Shown piece after piece: positions 20,238-57,024 of a stretch of DNA of 64,000 nt. Every line of letters begins with the position of its first letter. The first letter of the stretch is position 1. The position numbers and the translations under genes are program-made. Under the pieces are notes generated by a model. It worked only from the letters and a program-made list of their open reading frames with translations, did not search any database and was not told the DNA's origin. The DNA comes from Paramacrobiotus metropolitanus (taxonomy: Eukaryota > Tardigrada > Eutardigrada > Parachela > Macrobiotidae), in NCBI RefSeq assembly GCF_019649055.1, contig NW_026570236.1:992001-1056000 (forward strand), given 5' to 3'.

Positions 20238-20352
20238 ATGCGGTCAAGTCTTGTTCTTATTACTGATACGCAGCCCAGAAGTAGTTGTATCAATTTGGTA
20301 TTTTTGTTGTTTGAATCACGGCTAAACGTTTGCGACGTACGAACGAAGCAAG

Positions 20353-23281: not shown

Positions 23282-24033
23282 GCGATAATCGCCCAGAACA
23301 GTCATCCCAACTGCTGATGGAGGAAGCCGAATTCCATTAATTCCCACAGTTTGCTCGCATAATAGTTATTGTGCCCATAAATTCTAGCCTTCTTGGAATA
23401 TGTACAGCTTTACGAAGTTCTTCTAGTTCTATCAAACGGCGGTATTCGAACACAGCAGTTTGCATATCAAAGTTGTCGCTGGTATACAGTGACTGTAGTA
23501 CTTTCACATATATCTGTACAATTGTGGTCTTTGCCGGCTATGCGCGTCATATTATTCGAATAATTTAATGGCGATCATCCGGTCTATTCCACAGGGCACA
23601 CAGTTTCAGGAAATGAGCGCCGACTATCATACATTAACTGCAGTTATTCTGTAAGTGTGAAAGCGAGAAGATGCCTTCAGTACCCTGGATGCTACTTATT
23701 TTATTTCCAAAAGTGCTGACGCGGGAATTAACAGTTATAGCGAATTCTTAATGTTATCGATAATCGTTTTGTTTTGGATAGCAAAATCTTTTTCTGTCTG
23801 CATCGGAATTTTGCGCAAAGAAGCTTCCAAAAGTAACATATGGTGGATCCAATATTATGGAATCCACATTTATTATTCATGAAGTTACCCGTAATCTTGT
23901 GTACCTATACCGTGTCCGGATCAACATAATGTTGACCTAAATCCACATTTTTTGGAGTTTCAGAATGATCATTGCACTCTGATGTTGTTCTTGTAAGGAT
24001 TACTTCGGAATTTTTCCGACGTGCTTACCGAAA

Positions 24034-25065
24034 ATGAATACGACTGTGAGTGCCGCAACCTGGTCTACAAGCAACGCTACCAACAACTCCACCAGGTTAT
24101 TTCAATACAGCTGGAGTTTCGTTCCGGCAATAGAAGCGATTATTTTTCCCTGCGTATTGCTTTTTAACGGTTCTGTTCTGGCGTTATTCCTCATCACAAA
24201 GCGCTTCCAAGTCCCGTTTAATATTTATCTAATCAGTGTCATGGTCTCCAATATCGTGTACGCTGCTCTGGATAATCCTTTAGATATTCTCAACTTTATC
24301 TCCTCGTATTGGTGGCTGGGAAATGGCTGGTGCGCTGTGTATCTGTACTCCATATCCGTATCCAGCGGAATCGTCATGCAGTCCCACATGCTTATCACCA
24401 TTAACCGCATCTGGGCGGTGACCTTTCCCTATTCTTACCGTCAGCATCACTCAGTGCTCTGTGCCGTTCTGTTGGTCATCGCCGTTTGGTTGCTCGTGCA
24501 CATTATATCGCTACCGGGTTTGGTAATGGATATTATTTTGTGCAGACTGGCCAATACGACAACGGTCTGTGTGATAAATACGGCCGAAACGCCCGTGTGG
24601 AGCACTATCTCCCAAGTGCTGATTTTTGCAGTGCCCAATCTGTGTATTATCATAGCCTATCCGTATTTGGTCGTTATGCGTCATCGTCAGAAGAAAGTAA
24701 TGGCACATACCAAATTGCGCGGAACGTCCAATGGCGGTGTGACAAGCAAACGCGACAATCACACTGCAACTTCAACCTCGGTGTCTGCAGTAGCGTCCGT
24801 TGCCCCAGGCCAGGAAAGGCCACCGAAAAAGAGAACGCGGGCATTTGCCGTCTTCACCGCATTGACAATCAGCATTATGATTTGCTGGACGCCGCTGGAT
24901 ACGTATTATACGGTCTGGTATTTTATGGATTTGTCCAAATATGCAAAAACATTGGAGTTTTGTGAAATACTTTTCGTGCTGCAGCCGGCCTTGGATCCTA
25001 TATTCTTTGCTGTTATTATTCCTGATGTACGATCGCATATTTTAAAATGGTTTCGATGTCGCTAA
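24034..25065 (+). CDS. Rhodopsin-like (class A) orphan receptor 2, intronless
   Basis: 343 residues in one exon. The N-terminus is short, with several N-glycosylation sequons (NTT, NAT, NST). TM1 (32-53) has N45. TM2 is 63-86. TM3 starts near C100 and ends in NRIWAV (N124, R125) instead of DRY. TM4 is 141-162. Two Cys (170, 179) lie in the second outer loop. TM5 (190-212) has PNLCIIIAYPYL. The third inner loop is basic and Ser/Thr-rich. TM6 carries CWTP (284-287) and TM7 has LDPIFF in place of NPxxY. The pattern is that of a plasma-membrane G-protein-coupled receptor; the ligand is unknown. It is closely similar to receptors 3 and 4 and belongs to the same tandem set. The start is the first Met, matching the length of its relatives. 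Confidence 0.9.
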   Translation: MNTTVSAATWSTSNATNNSTRLFQYSWSFVPAIEAIIFPCVLLFNGSVLALFLITKRFQVPFNIYLISVMVSNIVYAALDNPLDILNFISSYWWLGNGWCAVYLYSISVSSGIVMQSHMLITINRIWAVTFPYSYRQHHSVLCAVLLVIAVWLLVHIISLPGLVMDIILCRLANTTTVCVINTAETPVWSTISQVLIFAVPNLCIIIAYPYLVVMRHRQKKVMAHTKLRGTSNGGVTSKRDNHTATSTSVSAVASVAPGQERPPKKRTRAFAVFTALTISIMICWTPLDTYYTVWYFMDLSKYAKTLEFCEILFVLQPALDPIFFAVIIPDVRSHILKWFRCR

Positions 25066-25651: not shown

Positions 25652-27044
25652 ATGGCGGCACACAATACGATTATACCGGTGGAGTCTATGGATAAGCTGG
25701 GCAGCCCTACCGGCGTCGGCAGTCAAGCGGAAGTTTTTAGAGCAATTCGGATAGACACCCAGGAAATCATTGCACTGCGGATACCCTTCTTAGAACGTGA
25801 TGCGGATACTAGACAACGACAAATCCAAGAGCTGGCACAGCGTCTCGAACCTTTTCTTCACCTCAGCCATCCGAATCTTGTCCGCCATCTCCATTATCAA
25901 ACTGTGATACCAGACGAAGCAGCTCAACGAATGCGCGGCGGTTTGCCTGATTTGCCCGAATACCAAATGCTCATGGAATTCTGTACAGGTACTTAAATAT
26001 TGCATCGGCGAATACTCGCTGATGTACTTCGAAAGCCTAAAGAATACAATCCAAATCCTACCTTTATAAATGAAAATGATAATACAGTAGCATCTGCACA
26101 TTTTAATATACCGGTGCTGTATATTACAATAATCTGCATAAAATATTCGGTATGGGTATACCTCTAGAATATCCGGACGAATAAAACCGACATCTGCATA
26201 ATACGTACGCAGTGCACGCATTAATACATTCTACAGCAGCATAGATATCGTATACTTCGTGAAGCACCTAAAATAATTCCTTCATAAAAAACATTACATT
26301 CACACATTGCATTATATTAAATATATATACGTTAGATGAACGTACGTTCACATGAAGCATGCATTAACAGGTGGCACTCTCCGGAAATACATCGAAACCA
26401 ACTGTTTAACCATAGCCTTGCTGCAAAATTTGGTCCAGCAGTTAGTCAGCGGTTTATCGTATCTCTGTCAACAAGGTTTTGCCCATCGTGACATCAAGAC
26501 CGAAAACATTTTCATGTCCCAACCCAATGCCGAAAATTGCTTGTTAAAAATTGGTGATATTGGTGATGTCAAGCGCATCGTTGGCGAATTCACGCACCGT
26601 GACGAACTCTCCTCTGGAAAGGGCACGTACGAGTTTATGTCACCCGAGATGATCATCGGCGACGCGTCGCCTTTACATGTCGCAGCAAACGACGCACGAG
26701 AAGATAGTGGCTTGATTGTGGGACGGCGCAGCGATGTCTGGAGTCTTGGCTGCGTTGTTATTCACATGATCACCGGTCGGTTACCGCGATTCTATAAAAT
26801 TTTACCGAATGGCGATCGCATGCGGTTGAAAATACCTATGGCCATAATGTATTTCGTGGGTAGTTCAGAAGGATCTCCAACGATTCCCAGGGAATTGCCA
26901 AAGGAGCTTCACAATTTTATCGAGAAGTGCCTTACGCGGCAGGTTAAAAATCGACCATATGCTACAGCTTTACAAGGGCATCCGTTTTTAACGACAGTAA
27001 ATGTTTCGGAATGGAGACTTCCGGCAAGAGAAACGGATCCATAA
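25652..27044 (+). CDS. MEKK/STE11-like kinase copy 1, ATP-lysine replaced by arginine
   Basis: Exons 25652-25988 and 26371-27044 join in phase 1 (Gly hinge) to give 336 residues. The N-lobe has an untidy glycine loop (SPTGVGSQAEVF) and reads IIALRIP where the active copies read IAIKIP or IAVK, so the strand-3 lysine that holds ATP phosphates is Arg. The C-lobe keeps HRDIKTEN, DIG for DFG, SPEM for APE and DVWSLGC. An insertion after SPEM (about 15 residues) is longer than in the other copies. Known families show that Arg at this lysine usually abolishes or strongly lowers activity, so a scaffold or weak kinase is likely. It most resembles copy 6 (FLERDADTRQ versus FLDDNADMRA). The intron is 382 bp. 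Confidence 0.85.
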
Positions 27045-28439: not shown

Positions 28440-31168
28440 TTTGCAAATTGCAGTAATTATAATACAGAGTAATGTATGGATTTCGTCGCAAAACCAGTGC
28501 TAGATTAGTTTTTCTTACGCTTTATTTGGCCAAAATTCTAGTACAAGGTGATGATGATTTCATTGCATTCTGCGTCGTGTCATTTCACAAGGAAAAATAG
28601 CAATCCCTTATTGAACGCTAGTACACTGGAAAATTTCAGATTACACCTGATCAGTAAGCGACGATCTCTTTGAGATAGGATAAAACGGATTCGCAGATAA
28701 TGCATGATCATGATTCGGCGAGCCCCTTTGGGGAATGAGACCATGGAAAATGCAGGCAGTTATAGGATTAATTTGATCTAATCGCTGCTACTTTGCCCTT
28801 TCAAAACCACCAAAGACGCTGACAAGAGGACAGTTCATAGAACATGTCATTCTATTCTTTATATCTGTAATAGTTAATATTCGTGTCGCTTATACGCAAT
28901 TCTACTTGCTTAACTTGGACCTGCTAAGGCCACAAATGCACTTTTACGGTTCGTGCCAGCTAGGTAGGTGGCATGCTTACATGCCAATAGATACGTTATT
29001 AGAATGCACGTAGTGTAGCCAATAGTGAGAAACATATAAGTACATAGTTAAGATGACCTTTTTATGTTGATACCTGCGTTGTTCATGGTAGTGCGCCTGC
29101 GTCTGTGTCTAATGTGAATCGGTTATAAGAAATTAGCAATCACTACGTCGTTATAGAATCTTTTAGCTCCGACGTCTGCAGATTGATTCCCATAGTCTGC
29201 ATCGCAGAAAATTATTTGACTGACTCGCACTTGGACCTACCCTAGTCTTGCATTGCATCAGCATGTAAGTGGATACGTCTTGTAGTGCAGCTGCGCGCTA
29301 ACTGTGGAACCTCATCTTTGGCTGCGCGCGGTACTCCTCTGCTGGATTCCATCATGTTCCTACAATCCGCTTCGGTATTTGCCATCCTCTAAGCAAGCAA
29401 AGCACATTATCTTTGTTACATTAGGTATCTGCGTATAATGGAGACAATTATACAGTAAGAGCCGCTCGATTTATCGAGTATGGTCAGTAATTACGCAAGC
29501 TAGATAGGTGTTTTCGTGTCGTCTCGCCTCCACGGCAGCAGTCAGTCATCAGTAATATTTTTTACTATCGCATATAATTATCTGAAAGAAAGTGCGTATA
29601 ACACACCAACAAAATTACTGACGAGACGAGGACTTTGTTTTACAGTGAAGAAATATATTGTGCATACCCGGAGTAATACGTTGTGGAGTACTGTTCAACC
29701 CTACAGTGCTGAATGCGTTGTGTTTAATGCAGTGAGTGTGTTGTGCTGATGATTAAAAAATACTGCCACAAACTTTAGGTAAATAAGTTTGTACATTTAG
29801 CAAATCGCTTATGGAAGATACCTAAAATGTGTTCAGAAATTAACCGTACGTGTTTATCTAGCAGAGTTTTTAAAATTAACAATTTTTTTAGTTTTAAGGT
29901 GAATCCCTCAATACACAATAACTATTCCAATCTTACAAGAGGAACACTGGCAAGCTGTGCGTTAATACATTTTTATAAGTACATACTGTACTTACTTTAT
30001 ATCTATATGGTACTACCGTACTACGTTGTACAATTCAAAACTGCCCCGGATCCATTAAGTCCGAACGCCGTCTGACGCCTGTGTTCCAGTTGCGTCTTCT
30101 GTGTTTAGAAAATCGCGTATTGTATTTAATTCCTAATGAAATGTTCCTTTCCTGATGTTTGCATCCTGATGGGAAAAATGGTGTTCAGTTCTATAATCTG
30201 ATACGAAATTGCTTTTGTTAAACTGTTGTTGTAGCACGTGACAAGTGTAAGATAGGTTGAGGATTCAGTTTACAGTTAATCTGCTGAGCAAGATGTGAAA
30301 TGTAAAACGATATAAAGGGTTAGGTTTATTGAAAGTAAATCGGGATCTCTTCTGATTTGAAAGATCTTTTATGCTACCAGAAAGCCTGCTTAAAACCATG
30401 TTTAGCAAAACTGTTTTAAGGACGAACATATTTCATCATTTAAAACGTCCCTTGAGGCTTGAGGTGACGTTTTCACCTTAACCGTGTTGGCTTCCGGTGC
30501 TCGTAGTAAAGCAACGGTTTCCGATAAATACTCTATTCTATTTGTCGGATCGTCGGTCCCTAGTTTTCAGGTAAGAATCAAAAATGTCAATGCCGGGAAT
30601 ATTCGTAGAAGAGTATGTTTTAAAATTTATATGGCGTGGTGCTTCTTTCTTCGTAATATTATAGTACAATTAGTCTACCTCATCACTCTTTTTTATGAAG
30701 CATGACATAAAACGTTGACGGTGCCCGTGATTTCAGCACTCCCAGGTGACCTTTTATGCTTTCCGCAGGCTACAACCAAGATAATTTAAACTAAATGGGA
30801 ATAAATTTTAATTTTTAGGTCTAACGAAAAGTGGCAGAAAGTGATGCAGGAAATAAGTATATGACATAACAAATTAGTATCAATTAACTTTCGAAATAAG
30901 AGAGAAGCCCGACCATTGTATTTGATAAGCAAATAGTGTGTGCATATTCTTTATTTGGATTGTGGACAGGGAAAGTTACTACGAGAATTTTCCAGAAAAT
31001 GACAAACTGTTGGGAATATATATGTACGAGTACATGAATCATAATCCTGAATGAAGGCTGTCGTATCGCCAGGGGATTTTATTAACATACCCGATTGCAT
31101 AATGGCTGCAGTCTAATTCTATTTTTGTACAGGTAACTGCTCCACTTTTCCCGTTTTCATGGTGCAAA

Positions 31169-32218
31169 ATGGATCAGAATACCAGTGCAAATTTTTCCAC
31201 AACCAACACAGCCAACAATGACACCACCCTGCAGTTCACATGGAGTTTTGTTCCGGCGATGGAAGCCGTGATTTTCCCGTGCGTGTTGATTTTTAACGGC
31301 TCCATTTTAGCGTTATTCCTCGTTACCCGGCGTTTCCAGATCCCGTTTAATATTTACCTGATCAATGTCATAACCTCCAACATTGTTTTCGCTCTATTGG
31401 ATAATCCCTTGGACATCCTGAATTTCATCTCTTCGTATTGGTGGCTCGGTAACACTTGGTGTACCGTGTACCTTTACGCAATCAACGTATCCAGTGGAAT
31501 CGTGATGCAGTCGCACATGCTCATCACCATCAATCGCATCTGGGCGGTCACTTTTCCCCATTCATACCGCCGCCATCATTCCGTGCGCAATGCTGCCGTG
31601 TTGGTCATCGCTGTCTGGCTATTGGTGCACGTTGTGTCGTTGCCCGGTCTCATCATGGATGCCACGTTGTACCGGTTGCCTATTGAAATAACGGGCTGTA
31701 TAATAAACACAAATGAGATGCCGGTGTGGAGCATCATGTTGCAACTGATTATCTTTGCACTGCCCAATTTGTGCATCATTTTAGCCTATCCGTATTTGGT
31801 TTCCATGCGCCTTCGTCAGCGGAAAGTGAGGGCGGCGAATAGATCGCCCGCCACAACCAAATTCGGTGGCAGTGTGCATTTCAAAGCCAATCGCTACTAT
31901 CACAGGGAAGCCTCAGCCTCAGCATCGGTCACGGTGACCAACAATAAAGCACCCGAAAGGTCACAAAGAAGGGACAATCGGGCGTTTGCCATCTTCACCG
32001 CACTTACTGTCAGCATTACCGCTTGCTGGACACCGCTGGATACGTACTATACGATTTCCTGTTTTATGGATCTGTCCACATACGTAAAAACGTTGGAGTT
32101 TTGTGAAATACTGTTTGTGCTGCAACCGGCTTTGGATCCTATCTTCTTTGCTGTTATAATTCCCGATGTGCGATCGCAGATCTTGCAGTGGTTTCGGTAC
32201 CGATGGGCCTCCAAATAG
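31169..32218 (+). CDS. Rhodopsin-like orphan receptor 3, intronless
   Basis: 349 residues, one exon, an intact relative of receptors 2 and 4. Features in order: sequon-bearing N-terminus (NFS, NDT), TM1 with FNGSILALF, TM2 ending DNPLDIL, cysteine before TM3 (NTWC), NRIWAV at the inner end of TM3, TM4, a second outer loop with a Cys, TM5 with PNLCIILAYPYL, a basic third inner loop with REASASASV, TM6 with CWTP, TM7 with LDPIFF, and a short tail WFRYRWASK without a palmitoylation-type cysteine. Substitution of DRY and NPxxY is shared by the family. An in-frame ATG directly follows GTGCAAA; no earlier in-frame ATG was chosen because relatives have the same N-terminal length. Confidence 0.9.
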   Translation: MDQNTSANFSTTNTANNDTTLQFTWSFVPAMEAVIFPCVLIFNGSILALFLVTRRFQIPFNIYLINVITSNIVFALLDNPLDILNFISSYWWLGNTWCTVYLYAINVSSGIVMQSHMLITINRIWAVTFPHSYRRHHSVRNAAVLVIAVWLLVHVVSLPGLIMDATLYRLPIEITGCIINTNEMPVWSIMLQLIIFALPNLCIILAYPYLVSMRLRQRKVRAANRSPATTKFGGSVHFKANRYYHREASASASVTVTNNKAPERSQRRDNRAFAIFTALTVSITACWTPLDTYYTISCFMDLSTYVKTLEFCEILFVLQPALDPIFFAVIIPDVRSQILQWFRYRWASK

Positions 32219-34438
32219 CCCCAAATTCATTCTTAACTCTTGGAAACGCAGTTCAGTAACGCTTACCATTAATCGAATATTATGGGTACATACTATATAA
32301 AGCCACAAATAAAAAGTTAGCAAGTGCTATTTGCGGTCAGCAAACGGTTAAATATCTGTGTCGGTTAGTTTTAATTTTCTGGCAAGCCCGGTATGATTGT
32401 TGTGTGCATTTCACGTTTATTTCGACTTGTTGCAGCTGGTATTCCACAAAAAAATTTATGGCAAATCGAGATCTGTTGGTGATCATTGTACCGCAGTATC
32501 AAAGTTGAATGTTAAACTATGATTCTAATTTTGCTTCTTGTATATTTTGAACCGCACTCACAAGGTCAAAAGTGACTAGACGCTTAGGACACTGCTTTGA
32601 AAAATTGATGCGTCGTTTGCGAGGAGTAGAATAAAACACTGCCATACTTCCCAACTAATTCGATGAAGCAGTGCGCGTGTCTGCGGAGTGTCTAATTTAC
32701 TTCACTCCCAAATTGCATGTTCTGAAGAAATAAGTACAGGGGTCAAGGATGGAATGATTAGTAATACAGGAGGATAGAGTTTACATTTTTAGTATGAGTC
32801 TCGTACTGCAATTGCCGAATGTCGGTATCACATCACAAAGATGTCACTATTTTCGCCCATCCTATTTGATTTCGCAGAGAAAAACTGCAATTCCGGAAAT
32901 GCATGTCAGCAGACCGGAAGGCTTCTGCAAGATTAATACCTTTGATCAGTCGAAAATTCAATTTTTCGAAAACGATCTGCCGGAACCGCAGATAATCATA
33001 GTTCGATAAATACGTATTATCAGCTTCTGTTCTGATCATTAATCATGTGAAACATTAAGACACTTTTCCGGTCCCTGGTTCTTTAGCGGCACTTCAGTAC
33101 GCAAACGATGACCGTACTCTCTAAGTTCATTTCTATCACAGCAGCCTACTTATCCTTTACTGTATCGGCAGTCACACTGGTTAGAATGGAAACTACGAGT
33201 ACTTTGTATTATAAATGCAGGAAAACTACTAGATCTGCTGAAGGTCTGCGATTCATGAAGTACAAGGTACTTGTTCAAAAGCTATGTTACACAATGCAAC
33301 AAATTTTGTTTTCTCCAACATTTATGAGATTACGACAAATTCCAGATATTACGCATTGTCCAGATATTTACATACAGTATTCAGCAGCTAGTGACTAAGA
33401 CAACAAACTTATGTCACGGTATAAAAGAGATAAATCTCTTTTATACCGTGCTTATGTCATCAGTATTTTTTTGCTTAATTTGTTTAGAATTAGGTTTAAA
33501 AAGTTTCTTTCGCTCGGAATCAGTGCTTGAGAAGTAAGTGATCACTTTTTGCGGAATACATTGGCACCGACTACCAATTACGTGCCCTTACAAACATTGT
33601 TGAATCTGCAGCTGCCTGTCGACTGCTGTACATGTACAAAATGTATGTTAACATTAACACAAAGACCCGACAGAAAAATTTAAACTATCATAAAACAAGT
33701 AGTATTCTAAGTAGAAATTAATACTTCGTGACAATATTGTTGCAATCTGTTAAAAATTGGCGTAATTAATTGCAAAGAGTTTCGCCAACTATGCACGCGT
33801 ACGCGAATGGCAGCTCTCGCAGTCCAACGTTGCTCGTTTTATATGTTCTTCTAAGATGCTGGCTGGCTGACATCAAATGACGTAAATTACTCTGTACGTA
33901 CGGTAATAAACTGTTTCTGATACCCCTTTACTTATTTGATGCTCAGTTTTATAATTGGGCAGGAAATGAATAACTGTTGATGACCTTTATCCTATACTCG
34001 TGATAACTGTTTCTGTAGGTGAAATAGTTTGAAAATTCAGCTAACAATTTAGGGTTTTACACGTGATCTGAGGTAAAACAATATGAAGGATTAAATTTAT
34101 TAGAATCAAAATTAATGAGAGAATCCCTCTTGGTTTGCAAAGTATTTATGCCGACGACGAAAAGCCATATCATTTGTGCTGAATAATTTCATCTTGATAA
34201 CGCTTGTTCTCCTTGTGGCAAAAAGAACGGCTGTATAGACCAGAATAGTTTTTCAATTCGTGACTAACGTAATTTATTCCTTAGAGTGGCGATTCCCCTT
34301 TTGCAAGAATTTCACCAAGTTATAATTAGTGAAGTTATCAACAGATCGATCGGAAACAATGAATTATAGATTTTATTGGTCGCCACAATCTGATGTCTTT
34401 AATCTTGTAAGAATAACTGCTGGACTTTCCCTGTTTCC
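32219..34438. other. 2.2-kb gap between receptors 3 and 4
   Basis: No supported gene. It holds a hairpin flanked by 9-bp direct repeats (33408-33459) and segments resembling those around receptors 1 and 3 (32890-33005; 34020-34200), which mark the borders of duplicated blocks. Confidence 0.5.
33408..33459. repeat. Perfect miniature palindrome flanked by 9-bp direct repeats
   Basis: CTTATGTCA at 33408-33416 and 33451-33459 flank a 34-bp core. A 17-bp perfect stem (CACGGTATAAAAGAGAT) with a 2-base loop spans 33415-33450. The direct repeats look like a target duplication of a tiny fold-back insertion. Confidence 0.8.
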
Positions 34439-35485
34439 ATGATTTCCAAAATGGACCACAACATAAGTGTAGCTGGCTTGCCAGCCAGCAACAGAACAAC
34501 CCTTAACGACACCACGCTGCGATACACATGGAGTTTTGTTCCGGGAATAGAAGCCGTGATTTTCCCATGCGTGCTGATTTTCAACGGCTCCATTTTAGCG
34601 TTATTCCTCGTTACCCGGCGATTCCAGATCCCATTTAATATTTACCTGATCAATGTCATAACCTCCAACATCGTTTTCGCTCTACTGGAGAATCCTTTGG
34701 ACATCCTTAATTCCATTTCTTCGTACTGGTGGCTCGGTAACACTTGGTGTACGGTGTATCTATACGCAATAAATGTATCCTGTGGAATTGTCATGCAGTC
34801 GCACATGCTGATGACCACCAATCGCATCTGGGCGGTGACCTTCCCCCATTCTTACCGGCAACACCACTCGGTGCGCAGCGCCGCCCTTTTGGTTATCGCT
34901 GTGTGGCTGTTAGTGCACATTGTGTCGTTGCCCGGCCTGATAATGGACGCCACGCTATACCGGTTGCCTATCGCGACAACTGGCTGTATAATAAACACAG
35001 TGGAGATGCCGGTGTGGAGCGTTATGATGCAACTAATAATTTTTACAGTGCCTAATTTGTGTATTATTGTAGCCTATCCTTATTTGATCTGTATGCGAGT
35101 TCGTCAGCGCAGAGTGATGGCACTGAGTAGATCTCAGAGAACAACAAGAACTGGCAGTGTTAAAAGTAATCGTTTCAAACACAGAGCGGCATCCACGTCA
35201 CTATCCGCAGCAGTGCCCAATGCGCAAGGGCCGGTACGGTCACCAAAAAAGACGAACCGGGCATTTGCTATCTTCACGGCATTGACGATCAGCATGACTA
35301 TTTGCTGGACACCTCTCGATACATACTATACTATTTCCTGTTTTATTGATCTGTCCACATACGAGAAAACATTGGAGTTTTGTGAAATATTGTTTGTGCT
35401 GCAACCGGCCTTGGATCCTATCTTTTTTGTTGTTGTAATACCCGAAATGCGATTGCCTATTATGGGCTGGTTTCCATACCGCTGA
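34439..35485 (+). CDS. Rhodopsin-like orphan receptor 4, intronless
   Basis: 348 residues from the first Met; a second Met four codons later (MDHNIS, 34451) aligns with the start of receptors 1 and 3 (MDQN) and is the likelier start. It shares with receptor 3 long identical stretches (FNGSILALFLVTRRFQIPFN, the NTWCTVYLYAIN segment), so the two are the most recent pair. NRIWAV replaces DRY. TM6 has CWTP. TM7 reads LDPIFFVVVIPEM, slightly changed from the family's FFAVIIPDV. A Ser replaces Phe in the TM2-TM3 loop (LNSISSYW instead of LNFISSYW). Function: presumed G-protein-coupled receptor, ligand unknown. Confidence 0.9.
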   Translation: MISKMDHNISVAGLPASNRTTLNDTTLRYTWSFVPGIEAVIFPCVLIFNGSILALFLVTRRFQIPFNIYLINVITSNIVFALLENPLDILNSISSYWWLGNTWCTVYLYAINVSCGIVMQSHMLMTTNRIWAVTFPHSYRQHHSVRSAALLVIAVWLLVHIVSLPGLIMDATLYRLPIATTGCIINTVEMPVWSVMMQLIIFTVPNLCIIVAYPYLICMRVRQRRVMALSRSQRTTRTGSVKSNRFKHRAASTSLSAAVPNAQGPVRSPKKTNRAFAIFTALTISMTICWTPLDTYYTISCFIDLSTYEKTLEFCEILFVLQPALDPIFFVVVIPEMRLPIMGWFPYR

Positions 35486-36853: not shown

Positions 36854-38130
36854 ATGGCTGCTCCAGACAGCCATTTTGTTGTTCTGCAGTTAATGAATTT
36901 GATCGATAGTGGTGCGCAAGGGAAGGTATATAAAGCCAAAAGAACCGACACGGATGTAATCATTGCTGTTAAATATGTCAACCTTGATCTCGAAAGCTCG
37001 AACCGGGAAAACCAGCTGGTAGCGCTTCGATCCAAGTTTGAGGATATTAAAAATCTGGATCATCCAAATGTAGTACGCCATATACATACGCAGACAAATG
37101 TGGTGGTTAGCCTCTACGAGCAGCCAACGTACCAAATTATTATGGAGTACTGCGAAGGTACGAGTACCGCATATCATGTATTTACTTTCGTTACGCTGTC
37201 AAGTTCAGTTACCTAACATCACATCAAGAATGCTTCTTATACAGTTATACGTACAGATACTCATGTGGTTGCTTTTATAAAATTGGCGCAAACCCCCATC
37301 GTGATATTTCTGGCTTTGTAAAATAAAAATTTCTAAAATGCTACGTGCCCCAAAATTTCATGGTGCGAAATGACTTTGAGCGTATAATTAAGTACAGACA
37401 CTGTTTTGATTATTAGATTGTTCAGTTAAATTAGCCAATTAAAAATCAATTAAATCAAGCAGAGAAAACAACAGTTTAATAACTTTTAGGCAAAACGCTA
37501 CATAATCTCGTGAAAGATTTCACGGTAACTCCACTACTCTTACAAAAATGGACCCGGCAGTTGGTCGACGCCATCACATACTTACACGAACAGTGCTGCG
37601 TCCACCGTGACATCAAAGGCGCCAACATTTTAACGACTTCGCTTGATGCCAACACGTGTGACTTGAAAATTGCCGATCTTGGAGATATTAAGCGTTTAAT
37701 GAAGGAAGCCACGCAGACTAAAGAAGTGTCGCATGAAAAGGGCACCTGGGCGTTTATGTCACCGGAGATGATTAAAGGGGAGCAGACAGAGAACGAGCAG
37801 TGTGCCGACAGGATTAAACTCGGGCGACGAACGGATATCTGGAGTTTGGGATGTGTGATTATCGAAATGCTCAACGGTGCACTGCCGCAGTTTCACAATA
37901 AGAATGGAATACTGGTTGCCGGTGATATGGCGGTAATGTATTTCATCGGATCGGGAGGGTCGCCAACAGTTCCCGCAAAGCTACCGCAGAAGGTACATGA
38001 TTTCATCACCAAATGTCTTAAGCGAAATCCGAATGAGCGACCTTTTGCTGCTGCTTTGAAGCAGCACGAATTCCTGACAAGCGCTCCGGAAGATGTTGCG
38101 ACATGGATACTGCCACCGCGTTTAAAATGA
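36854..38130 (+). CDS. MEKK/STE11-like kinase copy 2, catalytic residues intact
   Basis: Exons 36854-37157 and 37490-38130, phase-1 join at the Gly-Gly hinge, 314 residues. N-lobe: glycine loop SGAQGKVYKA, ATP lysine in IAVK, helix C region, HPNVVRH, hinge MEYCEG. C-lobe: WTRQLVDAI, HRDIKGAN (typical of the MEKK/STE11 group), DLG in place of DFG, KGTWAFMSPEM, LGRRTDIWSLGCV, ERPFAAALKQH. Nothing lies outside the kinase domain except about ten residues at each end, so it is a bare kinase domain. It should phosphorylate Ser/Thr. It forms a tandem pair with copy 3; shared hinge-exon start KTLHNLV instead of the GTLHxY of other copies marks the pair. Confidence 0.9.
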
Positions 38131-39238: not shown

Positions 39239-40476
39239 ATGGCCAATCCCGATGATCATATTGTTTCTTTAGAATACATCCGTTTAGTCGCTAGTGGCGC
39301 ACAGGGCACGGTGTTTGAAGCCAAAAAGATCGATTCTGGGGAACTTGTTGCTGTTAAGAATGTTTATCTTGATCCTGATCCAAAAAAGCGGGAAGTTCAG
39401 ACGAAAGCTCTAAGAGCGCAGTTCGACATCATCAAAAACTTAAATCATGCTAATGTCGTGCGTCACATGCTTACTCAGACAGATTTGGTTAGACCTAATC
39501 GCCCACTAGCCTTCCAAATCATTATGGAATATTGCGAAGGTAATTATTTAAGAACGCCAACAGTTTTTGCTTATATGTGTTCAGACAGTGGTGTACATGT
39601 GATTAAAGTTTACGGTAGCACGTAATACTACTTTACACATTACGTAGCAAGCACGTTCGAATTGTACGCATGTAGTATGTATATGAAACCAAAGATCACG
39701 TTATCGAGTTAAATCGGATTACCCTCATTAAACGAGTTGTATTACCTAATTAACCTGTAACAATTTAACCGATACCATGCTACGTTGTGATGATGGGTAC
39801 CTGAAATAAGGTCCGCGGTATAAATAAATCCGTTGTAGGTAAAACACTGCATAATCTCGTTCGAGAATTTCCGGTACCCCCGCTACTTCTGCAAAAGTGG
39901 ACCCGGCAGCTAGTCGACGGCATTACGTACCTCCATGAACAACGCTGTGTTCATCGTGACCTTAAAGGAGCCAATATTGTAACGACCTCCAATGATCTTA
40001 ACAGCTGCCATGTTAAGATTACCGATCTCGGTGATATCAAACGCCTGATGGCTGAAGCCACGCGAACTGGGGAATTGTCCCATGCAAAGGGCACCTTTGC
40101 CTTCATGTCACCGGAGATGATCAACGACAGGCAGATAGAAACGGAACCAGCGGGCGAGAAGGCTAAACTGGGACGACGAACGGATATCTGGAGTCTAGGC
40201 TGTGTGGTTATCGAAATGCTCAACGGTACACTGCCGCAGTTTTACAGACAGGGCGTGCTGATCACCGTTGACCTGGCGGTAATGCATTATGTGGCTAAGG
40301 GAGGATCCCCCACCATTCCTGCGGAACTACCAGGCAAATTATCTGATTTTATTGTCAGATGCCTTAAACATCATCCGAATGAGCGACCTTTTGGTGATGT
40401 TTTGAAGCAGCACGAATTTCTGACATCACCTGAAGAGGAGATTAAAAACTGGATTCTGCCAAAGCGATTACGTTGA
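39239..40476 (+). CDS. MEKK/STE11-like kinase copy 3, catalytic residues intact
   Basis: Exons 39239-39539 and 39839-40476, same phase-1 hinge intron, 312 residues. Glycine loop SGAQGTVFEA, lysine in VAVK, HPNV-type helix segment changed to HANVVRH, hinge MEYCEG, HRDLKGAN, DLG, KGTFAFMSPEM, RRTDIWSLGCVVIEMLNG, ERPFGDVLKQH. Domain-only protein. It is the tandem sister of copy 2 in the same orientation, with a similar-sized intron (299 versus 332 bp) and matching ends (ILPPRLK, ILPKRLR). An AATAAA lies about 210 bp after the stop. Confidence 0.9.
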
Positions 40477-40877: not shown

Positions 40878-41995
40878 TCATCCAGCTGGTGAATTCTGCA
40901 TCCACTGATCTTCCATACTGTTCGTACAGCAGGAAAAGAAAGGATGTTGAAGTAACTCACTGGCGGTAGGTCGATCATTTGGATCTCTAGCAAGACACTG
41001 CTCGATCATTTGCTTGAGGAGAGCTGGGATATCGCTGGGAATCGTGGGAAACCCTCCGCTACCGACAAAATATACAATCGCCAGTTCTCCCGTTATTGCC
41101 GTGACCTTATTGTCTTTATATTTAAGGAACTGCGGAATACTACGTGTGATCATCTGAATCAGCACGCATCCCAGACTCCATATATCACTTCGACGTCCGA
41201 GTTTCTTCGTTTCCCCAACGGGCTCGATTTCGACCTCGGAACCGGTTATCATTTCCGGTGACATGAATGCAAATGAGCTGGCTTTGTTGGTAATGTCACC
41301 GCAGTACATGGAAGTTGTTGTACTCGACAATAATTGTTTGAGATTTACAAGGCCCCCAATTTTTAAGCAGCAACAGTTTACATCGGGCGAGGAGAGAAAA
41401 ATGTGGTCACCCTTGAGATCCTTGTGAGCACAGCGGCGTTCGTGAAGATAAGCCAGGCCATCAGCCAATTGCCTAGCCCATTTTTGTAATAACCGTGCAG
41501 CGATGGGGGAGATTTTTAAAAGGTCATGGAGCGTGCCACCTAAAGGGAAACATTAGTCAATCAAAAATAAAAATATTTATAATTGTATTAGTCACTTCTT
41601 ATTCTTTATGCTGAGTTAACTGTACCTGAACAATATTCCATTACGATCTGGAACTGTGGAATCCGATAAAATTGGCTGTCCAGGGTGTTAAAGCGATGGG
41701 TCACTGAGGCCTTGATGATACCGATATCGTGATGAAAGTGCCGAACAACATTAACGTGATCAAAAGGTAAGATCTTTTTCATCACCCGTGCTATCCGGTC
41801 TATATCGCGTTGTCGTTTGCTTTCGTCATAATCCAGATAAGGTATTTTCACGGCTATTGAGTCCTTGCTGTTATACCATTTGCCAAGAAAGAGTTTTGCA
41901 TGGGAACTTTCTTTCAGCACAGAGGTGATATCCCCAATAAGAGGAGTTTGATTGGCGGTAAATGTTGAATCTGCCATACTAGTTTTTATGTTCAA
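40878..41995 (-). CDS. MEKK-like pseudokinase copy 4 (metal-binding residues lost)
   Basis: Exons (minus) 41995-41626 and 41539-40878, same phase-1 hinge intron (86 bp, the shortest of the set), 343 residues. A second Met at 41977 (MADSTF) is an equally good start. The ATP lysine is present (SIAVKIP). HRD is HKD, the Asn of HRDxKxxN is His (KGDHIF), and the DFG Asp is Gly (KIGGL). The glycine loop is absent (KESSHAKLFLG). SPEM, LGRRSDIWSLGC and DRPTASELLQHPF remain. The frame is open over both exons, so the protein is probably kept. Loss of Asn and of the DFG Asp predicts no magnesium-dependent catalysis; ATP binding without catalysis or a scaffold role are possible. Confidence 0.85.
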
Positions 41996-43746: not shown

Positions 43747-45463
43747 GTGAAATTAAATTTCAAGATGACCGGTGCGCTTTTTCATAAATACATTGTGCGT
43801 CAGAGGGATACGCGGATTTACAAGGCTGTACGGCTTGATACTAATGAGGTTGTTGCAGAACAAATCGTGCGCCTTCATCTTTGCGAACTAACTAGGGTTG
43901 AACAGATCCAACGGCTGGGGAAGAGTGCGGATCCTTTGCTACATTTTCGGCATCCAAACGTAGTGCGATATTTTCATCCTCAGCCAGTTTTCCCTGCAGG
44001 GAGGAATGAAATATCGGATCCTTATGGGATTCTGCTCAGGTACAAGAAGCATGAAAAAGCTAATAATACAGCACTTCTGCCCGTGTTGTGCAAGCCGCAA
44101 GGTAAAGAAAAAAAAGAATATTTACTAGGGTAGAGCGGTGCGTTATGGTCCGATAGCGCTGGCAGGCCATGCCAAACTGGACATGCATATGCCGTGCGTA
44201 AAAGTAATTGCAAAACGATGTTTCCATAAAAGCAGGTTCTGAGTTTTTGTTTTTCTTAATTTCCTAAAGGTTTCTTATGTTATTTTTTTGTTTTCTGATG
44301 TTCTCTTTTCTCAGTCTTTTGTAATAGACTATTTGTTTGATAGACGATATGTCGGAACGGCCTCGCGGCGAGATAAAGTGACGGCAAATCGTCCGTGACC
44401 AAATGGCCTGCGACTGGTTGTTCTCGGAAATGTCGCGGTGCTTACTTGAAATACTATTCAAGATTATGCCTTTTGCTGCATACATAGTATCCTCCTGATT
44501 CCAAAATAAACTTGTACTAAACAAAATGATCAAATCTGTGACCTTTTGTAGATTATTCTTAAGAACAAGCGAATACAATAAATATACTTTCATTTTGCAA
44601 TATTGTGCCGTAATTAAAATAAGAACGATTCTCCTTTCAAAAGGTTTACGACTATACGTCGTGCCACATAGCATTAAACATATAACTGCGATAAGCATTA
44701 ACCTGTGACCTTTTGTAACGACGATGACGACCGAGAATGCATAAACTGCAATGTGACGTTGTTATTTTGTAGTTTTACGCTTATTGACGTTTGTACTCAC
44801 TTAGGTGGAACGCTACATGATTACACGGCGAAAGCTCCCGTAACGCGACCACTGTTGGTAAACTGGACGCGCCAGCTGCTCGACGGCCTGGCTTATCTGC
44901 ATGAACATCGTTACATCCACCATCAAATCAACAGCACGCATGTACTACTGTCCTCAGCGGATATCACAAGCTGTTATTTGAAAATTGGCGGCTTGATTCA
45001 TGCGAATAGGGCCCTTTCTTACGACGGTCTTTCGATGGATCCAGACTTTGGAATAACCACACGCTTCAAGGCTCCGGAGGAGATCATGGGGAGAGGTGAC
45101 GAAGTGGAAGAAAGTGTGGCACAAAAGACGGACATTTGGAGTCTAGGATGCGTGATCATTGAAATGGTTACCGGGAGTATGCCAAAATTTTACAAATCCA
45201 CTGACGCCGGTGCATTAACTGAAATCACTGAAGATCTGGCAGTGATGTATTTTATCGGAAGTAACGGCTGCCCCACGGTCCCGAGTGAACTATCCGCAGA
45301 ATGTAAACATTTCATAAATCAGTGCCTAAAGAAAAAGGCTGCACATAGGCCAAGCGCAGAAGAACTAAAAGATCACCCCTTTTTGTTACCTAGTAAAATA
45401 AAAAAAGGGAAATTTCGTTCGACGGCAGGCACTTTTTTGGCGTGCTTTAGACATCGTCGATAA
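43747..45463 (+). pseudogene. MEKK-like pseudokinase copy 5, frameshifted in exon 1
   Basis: Exon 1 43747-44039 and exon 2 44805-45463 match kinase copy 8. In exon 1 a T-run near 43989 has one T more than copy 8, which shifts the frame. The shifted frame then leads into a stop just after the splice, whereas exon 2 is open from the splice to the end in the family phase. Residues lost even before the shift: no glycine loop, AEQIV where VAxKI is expected, HHQINSTH for HRDIKxxN, IGGL for DFG. TDIWSLGCVIIEMVTG and RPSAEELKDHPF remain. The C-terminal tail is longer than in copy 8 (about 22 extra residues, basic). A sequencing error in the T-run is the main alternative; then it would be an intact pseudokinase. 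Confidence 0.75.
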
Positions 45464-45884: not shown

Positions 45885-47246
45885 TCAATTTCTTTGTGCA
45901 TTGTTTCTTTGTGGCATCGTCCACTGGTCAGCCTCCCTTTCCAATAAAAACGCATCGCCTTGTAAATCTGGTGCATACGGGCGCTCCCGGACACTTCGTA
46001 TCAAACAGCGCTCAACGAATCTACGCATCGGTTCCGGCAAACCATTCGGAATACGCGGCATCCCTCCTAATTTCCCCACGAAATACATGATTGCTGTTCC
46101 GCTTGTAAGCTGCACTTCTTTCCCCTGAGGAAGGACTTTGTAAAAGTACGGCGCATGCCCCGTGATCATCTGAATCACCACACAGCCTAAACTCCATACA
46201 TCGGTCCGCCGTCCAACCAGAGCCGGGTTACCGGTGATCATCTCCGGCGACATGAACTCGTACGTGCCTTTTTCACAAGAGATCTCACTGCTGTCGGTAA
46301 ACTGCGCCACGATACGCTTCACGTTACCCAGATCACCGATCTTCAGATCACAGTTGTGAGCGTCCGGTGTGGAGAGGAAAATGTTCTCGCTCTTGATGTC
46401 GCGATGGACGCATTGCTGCTTGTGGAGATAGGTCAATCCGCTGACCAGCTGCTGTGTCCACTTTTGTATTAATGATGCGGACATGATATTGTCGCGGGCA
46501 TACGAATGCAACGTTCCACCTAGAAAATGCAGTGGATTGTGGACTGCTTTTTGCGCGGTGCCTCGAATTTTTATTACTGCATTATTGCATATCGTCACTG
46601 ATGATTGCTTAATCGCATTTACCAAAAATATTCACAATTATTCATAAATTATTGCACACATTAACAGCATTGCTGTTGGTCAACACTGTGCAAAGCATTA
46701 ATGTTTAATTTTTTTCGAACATCAAATCTGAAACACAACAAATTGACTACCGTAAGCATTGTAAATGTTTCGGGCGCACAGCAAACAACTATGCGCCGAA
46801 TCTGTCGAGCGTACTGAAGGAATTGGTAGAACAACCCTTTTACAATTTAATTTGGCTGCAAGCAGTGCAAACCGTCCACCTAAAGCGAAATCTGCTATTC
46901 TACCTGAGCAATATTCCATTAAGATTTGGTATTGTGGCATGGACGTTTGTTCTCCGTTTCTTTGCTCGGGCAGCTGCCTCGTAATTACCGTTTGGTGATG
47001 CAAATGCCGTACAACGTTCACGTGTTTCAGGTGCAGAAATGGCTCGAGACGTTGCGTCAGCTCCCAAATCTCTTGCGCTCTCATATCCGCATTGTCATCC
47101 AGGAATGGTATTTTTATGGCGATCACTTCGTCAGTATCGGTTCTACGCGCTCTGTACACAATAGCCTGAGCACCATGGCCGGCTGGATTCTGTAATAGTT
47201 CAACAGGGATCACGTCGGTGCTCCTTTCTACCTGATTGCACTCCAT
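45885..47246 (-). CDS. MEKK/STE11-like kinase copy 6, catalytic residues intact
   Basis: Exons (minus) 47246-46904 and 46519-45885, phase-1 hinge intron of 384 bp, 325 residues from MECNQ; an upstream in-frame Met at 47279 would add 11. N-lobe GHGAQAIVYRA, lysine in IAIKIP, HVNVVRH, hinge MEYCSG. C-lobe HRDIKSEN, DLG, KGTYEFMSPEM, VGRRTDVWSLGCVVIQM, ERPYAPDLQG. It lacks the acidic insertion after SPEM found in copies 2-4. It is the closest relative of copy 1, which sits 19 kb away on the other strand and has lost the lysine. An AG followed by GTGGACGG inside the intron (46872) mimics the true exon-2 start and may be a decoy acceptor. Confidence 0.88.
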
Positions 47247-49263: not shown

Positions 49264-50812
49264 ATGTTTTCGTTTCGCGCAATATCCCCTCTTGCTAATC
49301 CGCTGGGCAACGGAGGCAATGCCAGTGTCTACAGAGCCCAACGGACGGATATCAGAAATGGCAGCGATATTGCGGTGAAAATTATTCTCTTTCACGGATC
49401 AGATGAGCAGCAGAAAAATATTGATGAAATTAATCTTCTTACCGAAAAACTGGAACCGATCCTGGCATTGCGCCACCCGAATCTGGTTCATCATATCTTC
49501 CATCAAAGGATGCTGCAAAAAAACCAGTTTACAAAATGTGGATTGCCTACGGAGCTGCACTGCCCGCAGTATCAAATATTTATGGAATACTGCGCAGGTA
49601 TAATTTTAAGTAAACAATGTTGCACAAAAATACACTGCAGAATATAAATAACTCGTGCAGGTATATTATATAGAATATGCTGACAGAGTACTATACTTGG
49701 CAGAATTATTTTGATAGGTAGCTCTATACAATACGTCATGCTTTTAGCTTTCATAAGCGAAATAATTCATCAGCAAAACTATTTCAATATAAAGCAATAA
49801 AAATTAGGCTTTAGACTTTAGTTCTGCAATTACTTTTAAGGTGTTTTCTGGCTGCAGTAATAACTTATTAGTCTTAATTTTAACATAATTAGATCCGTAA
49901 CACATTTATGTCACGAAATTTTTCACATAGATACAGTATGCCGAACAATATTTTTAGTTATTGTTAATAACTTTTAGCTTTAATTTTAAGTACGAGTATG
50001 CTCTAATAATTTTTACTATTTTCAGTGTGCTGCTGTTGCCATTGCATTATATATTGCACTTGTACAGATCTAGAAGTACCGCTAAATGTGATGCTATAAA
50101 TATTTAAATTGTGCATCCTTCAGCGCTATTCGTGATTAAATTTTGTGATTTTTCTTGACTAGGTGGAACCTTACACGACTACGTCAAAATCAATCACCTC
50201 ACGGCTCCCCAGCTTCAGAACTGGACACGACAGTTAGTCAATGGTTTGACATACCTCCACGAGCAACAGTGCGTCCATCGCGACATCAAAGGTGACAACA
50301 TCTTCCTGACCAGCGCCGAACCCAACAGCTGCCTTAAAATCGGTGACCTGGGTGACATCAAACAGCTGGTGCAGAGTCTCACCGCCCGCAGAGAGGTCTC
50401 CCACGACAAGGGCACTTTCGCTTTTATGTCACCGGAAATGATCCTCGGGGAGCAGAATGATGATAGCTGTATTGTGGGGCGGCGCACGGATATCTGGAGT
50501 TTGGGATGCGTGGTCATCCAGATGATCACCGGACATGCTCCGCGCTTTTATAAGCCGGTGGTAAAAGGGAACGGTTATGTGGCGATTAAGGAACAACTGG
50601 CGATTATGTACTTTGTCGGTAAAGGTGGATCGCCGGCGATTCCGTCTGACCTACCGGAACCGATAATGGATTTTCTGCACAAATGTTTCCTGCGCAAGTC
50701 CACGGATCGACCGTATGCCCCCGATCTGAAGAAGCATCCGTTCTTAACAGCGGATGACGTTGACCACTGGACACTACCGATAAGACCGGATGTTAATGAA
50801 GGGTTGCGGTGA
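49264..50812 (+). CDS. MEKK/STE11-like kinase copy 7, catalytic residues intact
   Basis: Exons 49264-49597 and 50163-50812, phase-1 hinge intron of 565 bp, 327 residues. Glycine loop GNGGNASVYRA, lysine in IAVKII, HPNLVHH, hinge MEYCAG followed by GTLHDYV, HRDIKGDN, DLG, KGTFAFMSPEM, GRRTDIWSLGCVVIQM, DRPYAPDLKKHPF. Exon 2 is closer to copy 6 (TGHAPRFYK versus TGHAPYFYK; APDLK versus APDLQ), but exon 1 is more divergent. The start is the first Met of the open frame; it precedes the glycine loop by only 14 residues. Confidence 0.9.
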
Positions 50813-52222: not shown

Positions 52223-53877
52223 ATGAAGCTTGCATTCAATATGGATGATATCTGTACGCGTCATCAGGAAAGCATTCCGGTTGCACTGGAAATGTGCACG
52301 ATGCAAGAGAGGGATACGCAGGTTTATAAGGCTGTGCGAGAGGACACTAACGAGATTGTTGCAGCCCAAATCCTACTTCTGCACGTCGACAGCAGCATCA
52401 GGGATGAACAGGTTAAACGGTTGGAGAAGAACCTGGACCCTCTGCTGCAATTTCAGCATCCCAACGTAATGCGATACTTCAACCATCAGCAAGTTTCCTT
52501 GCAGGATGAAGTGAAATATCGGTTCCTTATGGAATTCTGTTCAGGTAATTATACGCAAAAAATCATAATATTACTGCTGCCTATACTATACGTACTGCGG
52601 CATGCAGAAGGTTGCACGAAATAAAAGAAAACTTTTACGAGAACAGTGTGCAAGTGGGCTAACAGAAACTTCTCTTCTTTTATTGCGAGCTACAGCAAGT
52701 TGAATATGACACACCGTGTGTGTAAACAGCTGCATATGTTTTGCATTGCATTGTAATGGGATTATTATTGTACTCTGTATCTTCGGGATACTGGAGAAAA
52801 ATGTTCGCTAATTTGACAACGTTACAGCAACTCTTTCCTTTTGCAAGCTTTACTCTGCGTGGATGGGTTAGCCGTTAGGATAGAATTATTGTACATATGG
52901 TCCGAAATACAACTGCACGAAGCATTAATTAGATCACTTTTGTGACCTTTTTTTGTAAATTATTTCCAAGACAAGCTATTTCATATGACCAAGCAAGCAA
53001 GTTGATGGGCATGTATTAAAGCAAGTTTTTGTTCCCATCAACGTTTAGAATTATAATGGAAAAAATAAAACTCTCTCCTTGTAGAAGGTTTAATTATAGC
53101 TTTAAGGTTGTGCTAATATTAATGTGATCGGACCATATATATTATCCAAAATAAAACTGCATTATGAATTATGATTACCTAATTTGTGACCTTCCTTTAA
53201 CTTGCGACGAATAACTGCATTAAATAAATCAATTATCAAAAACACAATGCGTCGTGCTGCTTATTGCATATTGGGCCCATTTAGGCGGAACATTACATAA
53301 TTACGCGACGAAATCTCCCGTGACGGGACCATTGTTGGTAAACTGGACGCACCAGCTGCTTAACGGCCTTGCGTATCTACATCAGCACCATTACGTTCAC
53401 CATCAAATCAACAGCATGCATGTGTTGCTGTCCTCAGCGGATCCCGCAACCTGTCATTTGAAAATCGCCGGCTTAGCTCATGTGAAAAAGGCTCTTGAAC
53501 ACGGCGGACGGTCAATGGATTCAAACTTAGGAATGACCACACGCTTCATGTCTCCGGAGGAGATCATGGGGTTAGGCGACGAAGTAGAAGAAAGTGTGGC
53601 ACAAAAGACGGATATTTGGAGTCTGGGATGTGTGATGATTGAAATGGTAACCGGGACTATGCCGAAATTTCACAAATCCACTGGCGCGGACGCATTAATT
53701 GAAATCACTGGAGATCTGGCAGTGATGTACTTTGTCGGGAAAAACGGCAGCCCAACGATCCCTAGCGAAATATCCATAGAATGTGAAAATTTCATGAAGC
53801 AGTGTCTAAAGAATAACGGCACAGATAGGCCAAGCGCAGAAGAGCTTAAAGGTCACCCCTTTTTATCAGCCACTTAA
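52223..53877 (+). CDS. MEKK-like pseudokinase copy 8, all catalytic residues replaced
   Basis: Exons 52223-52544 and 53285-53877, phase-1 hinge intron of 740 bp, 304 residues, fully open. No glycine loop (MCTMQERDTQVYKA), AAQIL for VAxKI (lysine to Gln), HHQINSMH for HRDIKxxN (Asp to Gln, Asn to His), KIAGL for DFG (Asp to Gly). Structural elements are kept: HPNVMRYF, hinge MEFCSG-GTLHNY, SPEE for APE, TDIWSLGCVMIEM and RPSAEELKGHPFL. Sister copy 5 shows the same losses, so they happened before the duplication, and this copy has stayed open since. That is expected of a pseudokinase used as an adaptor or allosteric partner. AATAAA words follow directly after the stop. Confidence 0.87.
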
Positions 53878-55920: not shown

Positions 55921-57024
55921 TCACGGCGATGTTATTATGTCATCCGCACTGAGAAACGAATGCTCTTTCAGCTCTACCGCAGACGGTCGATCGGCCGGGT
56001 TGTGCCGCAGGCAATTGCCGATGAAATCAGCGACCGGACCTGGCAAATTGTCAGGAATGACTGGCGATCCGCCCATAGCGACGAAATACATTACAGCGTG
56101 CATTCCGGTAAGTTCGCGACCATCGCTTATGTTGACAAACTTGGGAAGACGCCCAGTGACCATTTCGACGACGACACAGCCCAGACTCCAGATGTCAGTG
56201 CGTCGTCCAACATTATGCTTGTCTAGTTCGACGATGATCTCCGGTGACATGAACGCAAACGTTCCCTTATAGCCGGACACTTCGTTCACTTGTGTCGTTT
56301 CGGAGCGTAAGAACTTCATGTCACCCATATCACTGATTTTCAACTGGCACGTGCTTATATCCATGGATGACAATAAAATGTTGGAGCCTTTAATGTCGCG
56401 ATGGACGCAATGCAAGTCATCATGCAAGTAAGCGATTCCTTCCACTAACTGCCGCGTCCATCTTCGCAGAAGTACCGGTGTCATCGTGATGGTCTTCACG
56501 ATGTCAGAAAGGGGTGCACCTACGACAACGACCAGAATAGTTATAGTTAGTTTATACCATAGCAGTTATCTATCTTTTTGTAACATCTACCGTTTGCTCA
56601 ATAAGAAGACTACGCTTTGCCATTAAATAAAACTCCAACATTCTTAGGAAGTAAGTACTGTTATCCGTTATCAGTTATATAGTGACAAGCACCGCCAGTA
56701 AATCACGGAGTGACCTTTGCAAAATTCCATAATGATGTGGTACTGTGGCAATCCGCTTTCGTGGCGTTCCGCATCACGTTGGCAATGGATATGGCGCACC
56801 AAGTTGGGATGATCTAATTTCCCAATTTTTTGCAGATGAGTTTGATAGTGTTTGATCTTCTTCTCCTGAGCGCTTTGGTCGAAATCCAGTAAAATACATT
56901 TAACAGCAACAACTTCATTGGTGTCGTTGCGTACGGCTTGATATGTTCTGCCTTCTTGACCTATCCCAATAAGTTTTTCCAGCCGAAGCGGTATAATATT
57001 GCTGCAGTCCTTTTCGAATACCAT
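55921..57024 (-). CDS. MEKK/STE11-like kinase copy 9, catalytic residues intact
   Basis: Exons (minus) 57024-56715 and 56519-55921, phase-1 hinge intron of 195 bp, 302 residues, the shortest intact copy. Glycine loop GIGQEGRTYQA, lysine in VAVK, HPNLVRH, hinge MEFCKG then GAPLSDIV (the usual GTLH is GAPL here), HRDIKGSN, DMG for DFG, KGTFAFMSPEI, VGRRTDIWSLGCVVVEM, DRPSAVELKEHSF. It is the most divergent of the active copies in its exon-2 start and lies at the far edge of the cluster. A TATATAAAG on the minus strand at 57171-57179 could be its TATA box. Confidence 0.88.

Follow-up and report, generated by a model that had tools for sequence, protein, structure and literature searches.

Kinase genes of the window and the structure of K8

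The window, a 64,000-nucleotide stretch of contig NW_026570236.1 of the tardigrade Paramacrobiotus metropolitanus, contains nine kinase genes, K1–K9, which lie on both strands from 25652 to 57024. The intron position is identical in all nine copies and follows the motif MEYCxG or one of its variants. The copies K2 (36854..38130, +), K3 (39239..40476, +), K6 (45885..47246, −), K7 (49264..50812, +) and K9 (55921..57024, −) retain both HRD and D(L/M)G, with DMG for DFG in K9 and DLG in the other four; K7, the neighbour of K8, also has intact Lys and Asn. In K1 (25652..27044, +), HRD is intact, DFG reads DIG and the VAIK-Lys is replaced by Arg. K4 (40878..41977, −) is a partial pseudokinase of clade B (see below), in which Asn is replaced by His and DLG by GLV, while Lys and the Asp of HKD are kept. 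K5 (43765–45463, +) is a pseudokinase that starts 8.5 kb upstream of K8. Four tandem genes for rhodopsin-like receptors (GPCRs), assigned by eye from their translations, lie beside and within the kinase array (20326–21944, 23983–25065, 31103–32218 and 34403–35485, all +), and part of an Aurora-like kinase was recognized in the same way at 1846–2361 (−).

K8 consists of two exons on the forward strand, exon 1 (52223..52544) encoding the N-lobe and exon 2 (53285..53877) the C-lobe, separated by a GT–AG intron of 740 nt in phase 1 (52545..53284). Its coding sequence of 915 nt comprises 304 codons and a stop, with no internal stops and intact splice sites, and the open frame over 304 codons reported in the first-pass annotation is therefore borne out, as that of a two-exon gene. 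K8 thus does not have the broken reading frame of a pseudogene. Translation may start at Met1 or at Met7, and the C-terminus reads HPFLSAT followed by the stop. The assembly was built from Nanopore reads and polished by nanopolish, then twice by Pilon with Illumina reads. Against the Pfam Pkinase profile (PF00069), K8 scores 126.6 bits (cut-off 31.7; E = 1.5e-36); the match spans K8 residues 33–301 and profile positions 14–263 of 263, covering both lobes of the kinase fold.

Catalytic residues of K8 and its sister K5

The replacements in K8 were read by alignment against the intact copies. The VAVK of these copies is VAAQ in K8, with Gln (Q49) at the VAIK-Lys position (52367–52369, +), and the Gly loop GxGxxG/A reads MQERDT (52301–52318, +). 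In the degenerate catalytic loop HHQINSMH (53398..53421, +; HHQINSTH in K5), HRD has become HHQ (residues 146–148) and the metal-binding Asn has become His153, and DFG, which is DLG in this kinase family, reads GLA (residues 170–172; 53470..53478, +; GLI in K5). Each of these changes had been named in the first-pass annotation and was confirmed by the alignment, as were the fold residues that it described as kept, i.e. the hinge (MEFCSGG), DIWSLGC (within TDIWSLGC) and RPSAEEL; we add to its list the replacement of the catalytic-loop Lys by Asn150. SPE, the APE-Glu, the αF-Asp and the αI-Arg are also retained. A pseudokinase is taken here as a protein that keeps the kinase fold and has lost at least one of the VAIK-Lys, HRD-Asp and DFG-Asp; K8 has lost all three, plus the Asn. 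We infer that K8 is a true pseudokinase that is catalytically dead, and ATP binding is predicted to be lost as well.

The genome (169,799,020 bases in 533 contigs) was searched with K8, and 130 of the 526 candidates were scored, all 130 counting as matches. From outside the window we took 31 stretches, comprising the better matches and three partial ones, which together with the nine window copies gave a tree of 40 rows, with L028, L034, L035 and L036 as the outgroup and the other 36 as the ingroup; for L031 and L033 no exon 1 was found in the fetched stretch, and for some other rows part of it was found. K8 belongs to this family both by its phase-1 intron after MEYCxG, a feature checked in the nine window copies, and by its nested position in the tree. 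DFG-Asp is replaced in 20 of the 36 family rows and HRD-Asp in nine; 23 rows carry a replacement at one or more of the four positions Lys, HRD-Asp, Asn and DFG-Asp (the Lys of L025 is a gap in the residue table, but is present on a closer look at the locus). Among the 36 rows, only K8 and K5 have lost all four.

K5 has an exon 1 (43765..44039, +) with a 1-nt frame shift, due to an additional base in a run of T near 43988 that may be real or an assembly error, and an open exon 2 (44805..45463, +) with the same catalytic replacements as in K8. The two copies share Gln for Lys, HHQIN, His for Asn, GL- for DFG and the absence of a Gly loop. They form a sister pair with support of 100/100 and a stem of 0.82, and again with 100/100 when the motif columns are removed. 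As the dead residues are common to both, the simplest reading is that catalytic loss predates the K5/K8 duplication. Exon 2 is 71% identical between them, and with its edges it gives a gapless alignment of 635 nt (81%); the introns are alignable in short pieces only, and in exon 1 the copies differ not only by the frame shift but also by indels towards the N-terminus, with 16 K8 codons opposite K5 gaps. No third member of the K5/K8 clade was found among the 130 scored of the 526 genome candidates, the next best having 46% identity. The dS of exon 2 (0.39) is below that of exon 1 (0.79), so K5 and K8 may have undergone partial gene conversion; such conversion would leave unaltered the finding that both copies are dead while constrained.

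Constraint on the K5/K8 line and on the C-lobe

Comparison of K5 with K8 over 287 codons gave dS 0.50, dN 0.20 and ω 0.397 (bootstrap 0.28–0.56), and exon 2 alone gave ω 0.40 (0.25–0.65). The neutral ratio that the first-pass annotation had named as evidence against a selected role is thus not seen in this pair, whose dN/dS is 0.40. Other pairs in the family have dN/dS values of 0.10 (L009–L010), 0.13 (L012–L013), 0.15 (K4–L009), 0.21 (K2–K3), 0.23 (L032–L033), 0.35 (L021–L023), 0.43 (L024–L027), 0.45 (L015–L022) and 0.50 (L020–L026), and the pair K1–K6 is saturated.

A custom-written codon model with branch classes (12 taxa, F3x4) rejected neutrality of the K5 and K8 lineages together, with free branch lengths (p = 9.3e-5) as well as with tied time (p = 4.3e-5). 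In the tied fits the neutral lengths of K5 and K8 are set equal, because they are two copies in one genome with equal time since duplication. With tied time, ω is 0.36 for K8 (profile about 0.20–0.60; neutrality p = 3.6e-5) and 0.56 for K5 (neutrality p = 0.0065). With free lengths, neutrality of one lineage alone is rejected neither for K8 (p = 0.60) nor for K5 (p = 0.13), and equality of the K8 ω with the background is not rejected either (p = 0.25), the difference being borderline with tied time. Saturation of the outgroups makes the two lineages inseparable with free lengths; the stem ran to 4.95, at its bound, and the free fit with K8 neutral needs about 4.5 times less neutral time for K8 than for K5. 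Among the joint-neutrality and tied fits, the free models were run from several starts and most of the constrained ones from one to two, while the free-length single-lineage fits are rough, as they come from one start and have an uneven profile (LRT 2.63 at ω 0.6 and 0.13 at ω 0.7). Simulation of neutral substitution on the K8 branch produced a mean of 6.1 stops at t = 0.19, with 0.17% of the runs stop-free, and 3.5 stops at t = 0.10, the shortest simulated, with 2.8% stop-free.

These comparisons of coding sequence support purifying selection in the K5/K8 line after catalytic loss. The selected non-enzymatic role proposed in the first-pass annotation therefore gains support for the line as a whole, through the rejection of pair neutrality (p about 9e-5), and for K8 alone it needs the assumption of equal time. 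The constraint on K8 may be relaxed, since its ω of 0.36 is about twice the family background of 0.19.

A different history would make K8 a dying duplicate, in which constraint on the pair lasted until not long ago and K8, by now neutral or silent, has yet to lose its frame. Decay of this kind would fit the frame shift in K5 and the state of the family, in which at least seven of the 36 rows look frame-broken or have stops in the assembly (K5, L018, L025, L029, L037, L038 and L039; a lower bound from a dedicated check of nine loci) and L030 looks truncated. Six of the seven are among the 23 rows with a replaced catalytic residue, versus one among the 13 others. The broken frames of K5 and of these rows suggest that the family turns over by birth and death of copies, and the free-length result for K8 alone also agrees with recent decay. 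However, the constraint that was measured postdates catalytic loss, the tied-time fit rejects neutrality of K8 and makes it the slower-evolving of the two copies, and there are no indels in exon 2 between K5 and K8. We regard a dying K8 as possible, if doubtful.

The constraint is not evenly spread along the C-lobe. The segment of K8 from the P+1 loop through APE and the EF loop to αF (53536..53649, +) is identical to K5 at 34 of 38 residues, with dN 0.06 and dS 0.31; this segment was picked after viewing the data, and 14 of 250 windows of the same length are as low or lower. Identity drops to 13 of 27 residues in the activation loop (dN 0.33, dS 0.47) and is 17 of 23 in the degenerate catalytic loop. 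Within the P+1–αF stretch lies GDEVEESVAQK, which of the 40 rows occurs in K5 and K8 only; a similar acidic run, SEVE, is seen in clade B. Conservation of this stretch between the two copies, GDEVEESVAQK included, favours a binding surface on the C-lobe. AlphaFold predicted a kinase C-lobe for exon 2 of K8 alone (mean pLDDT 79.8), for which Foldseek found solved kinases, headed by ULK1 (E = 3.1e-9), with ASK1 and Aurora A close behind. For exon 1 alone, five strands and one long helix were predicted (mean pLDDT 66).

Taken together, we consider it reasonably likely that K8 is a dead pseudokinase under purifying selection, probably a protein-binding module. K8 would have arisen within a tardigrade MAP3K/STE-like kinase family, from an ancestor shared with K5 that already lacked the ATP Lys, the HRD-Asp, the metal-binding Asn and the DFG-Asp, and conservation of the fold would have continued in the K5/K8 line after this loss. 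The most likely mechanism is one in which K8 does not bind Mg-ATP and works by binding proteins. Its C-lobe, from the P+1 loop to αF, may bind a partner or substrate of related kinases, and K8 could act as an allosteric partner or as a competitor of these kinases.

Known pseudokinases and catalytic loss across the family

The first-pass annotation had likened K8 to STRAD-type adaptors, which would imply a closed kinase shape, ATP held without Mg and allosteric activation of a partner kinase. According to the published account, the Gly loop of STRADα carries Met in place of one Gly, and Arg stands for Lys, Ser for the HRD-Asp, His for Asn and GLR for DFG; the protein holds ATP without Mg, the phosphates being held via Arg215, His200 and Lys197 (PMC2686265). 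K8 is similar in that a kinase fold is combined with replacement of the Gly loop, Lys, HRD-Asp, Asn and DFG (PMC2686265 for STRADα). At two sites, Asn to His and DFG to GL-, the letters are identical, which favours a STRAD-like K8. K8 differs in having Gln at the position of Arg100, Ala at that of Arg215 (the Arg of GLR) and Asn at that of Lys197 in the catalytic loop, and in STRADα it is Arg215 and Lys197 that hold the phosphates with His200; of the His, GLR and loop Lys of the STRAD ATP site, K8 thus has the His, with GLA and Asn instead of the others. Furthermore, the C-terminal WEF of STRAD is absent. A Trp is present in the last 25 residues of at least 28 of the 36 family rows, a lower bound because the tails of the fetched rows end 10 residues past the profile match, and in neither K8 nor K5. 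Among the 60 best PDB matches listed, out of 1697 to K8 and 2202 to a profile of clades A and B, none carries the name STRAD, and K8, unlike STRAD, is nested in a same-genome kinase family with HRD/DLG-intact members. Membership of K8 in STRAD was rejected on the WEF and on the ATP-holding residues, and the STRAD-type mechanism is not borne out, the GLR-Arg and the catalytic-loop Lys being absent along with the WEF; we consider it very unlikely.

Among the PDB sequence matches listed, the best for K8 alone are the catalytic domains of STK25/STK24 and MAP3K12, and the best for the clade A and B profile are GCN2 and MAP3K5/ASK1. K8 resembles these proteins and ULK1 in having a STE/MAP3K-like catalytic domain by sequence or fold, with identities to the K8 C-lobe of 22–25% for ULK1 and 25–28% for ASK1 among the Foldseek matches listed. 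STK25/STK24, MAP3K12, GCN2, MAP3K5/ASK1 and ULK1 are active kinases, whereas K8 is predicted to be inactive. CASK, according to the same account, is missing the DFG Asp and works without Mg (PMC2686265). It compares better with clade B (K4, L009 and L010), which has lost the DFG Asp (GLV for DFG) and has His for Asn, but keeps the VAIK-Lys and the HKD-Asp, with an ω of 0.16; in K8, the VAIK-Lys and the HRD-Asp are lost too. Because Lys and the HKD-Asp are kept and constraint is strong (dN/dS 0.15 and 0.10 in the two pairs above), the members of clade B are candidates for Mg-independent ATP binding, and from its residues K4 would be a better candidate for this than K8.

Besides group A (K8 and K5) and group B, we distinguish group C, formed by the arrays on contigs C209 and C35, and group D (L024, L027, L032, L033, L038 and L039). 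At least three changes of the DFG-Asp are needed on the first tree and five on the tree without motif columns. A single origin of all DFG-Asp losses was rejected (p-AU 1.5e-50). With the motif columns in, K4, K5, K8, L009 and L010 form a clade, as in stepwise loss, with support of 77/75; with these columns removed, the clade is absent from the tree (p-AU 0.34, no rejection) and K5/K8 are placed by the K7/K6/K1 group (86/76). On C209 and C35, DLG is changed to HLD, HLG, HLE, QLE, RLD or NLD in L015, L020–L023, L025, L026, L029 and L030, and in some of the copies on these contigs HRD is changed to HGH, HGE, HSE or HCD.

The αC Glu position also deviates in the family, with Glu in one of the 34 readable ingroup rows, Asp in nine more, and Glu in all four outgroup rows. 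In an alignment that rests on one exon, this position lies nine residues ahead of the His in HPN, and by comparison with known kinases and the outgroup we take it to be the αC Glu site. Since Glu is so rare there, even the HRD/DLG-intact copies may be atypical, which calls for caution about the active paralogues that the first-pass annotation placed next to K8 and is not proof against them.

K8 itself belongs to a known class, the pseudokinases, and the repeated catalytic loss in its family is the more interesting feature. A bolder reading, possible if doubtful, is that this family of some 36 loci or more has undergone repeated, selected loss of catalysis. At least three independent pseudokinase clades, which lack the DFG-Asp alone, the DFG-Asp together with the Asn, or all catalytic residues, would then share arrays with intact-looking copies and serve there as non-enzymatic regulators or as decoys. 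The family would parallel, in an animal, the rhoptry kinases of Toxoplasma, and K8 would be the member in which loss has gone furthest. If this is true, one small family in one genome holds a graded series from intact-looking to fully dead copies that arose by loss on several independent occasions; close paralogues could serve as controls in tracing the order of loss and the point at which selection shifts from catalysis to binding. The ROPK family of Toxoplasma, with ROP5, is described as lineage-specific and as mixing active and degenerate kinases (PMC3682881). The family of K8 is similar in being lineage-specific and in having intact-looking and degenerate members, an analogy of how the families may work only; ROPK and ROP5 differ in being secreted virulence factors of a parasite.

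As in fast-evolving kinase arrays, K8 might instead mimic an active paralogue and divert a parasite protein or an upstream activator. The arrays, the broken copies and the repeated catalytic loss are what such a decoy would lead one to expect, but the dN/dS of the K5/K8 pair is below 1, as an average over the pair. We consider a decoy highly improbable, and a constrained, protein-binding K8 remains our preferred reading.

To our knowledge, no pseudokinase array has been described in tardigrades. A search confined to one open-access collection found no paper on tardigrade pseudokinases, and among the papers listed for tardigrade or Paramacrobiotus kinases no title or beginning of an abstract concerned the kinase family of K8. 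The word 'kinase' is absent from the main text of the P. metropolitanus transcriptome paper (PMC11191345). In a further study, 27 kinase clusters are reported among the tardigrade-only clusters with congruent domains (PMC5531438). Finally, more clusters of distant kinase-domain matches, with 27–37% identity to K8, lie on contigs C105, C72 and C232.
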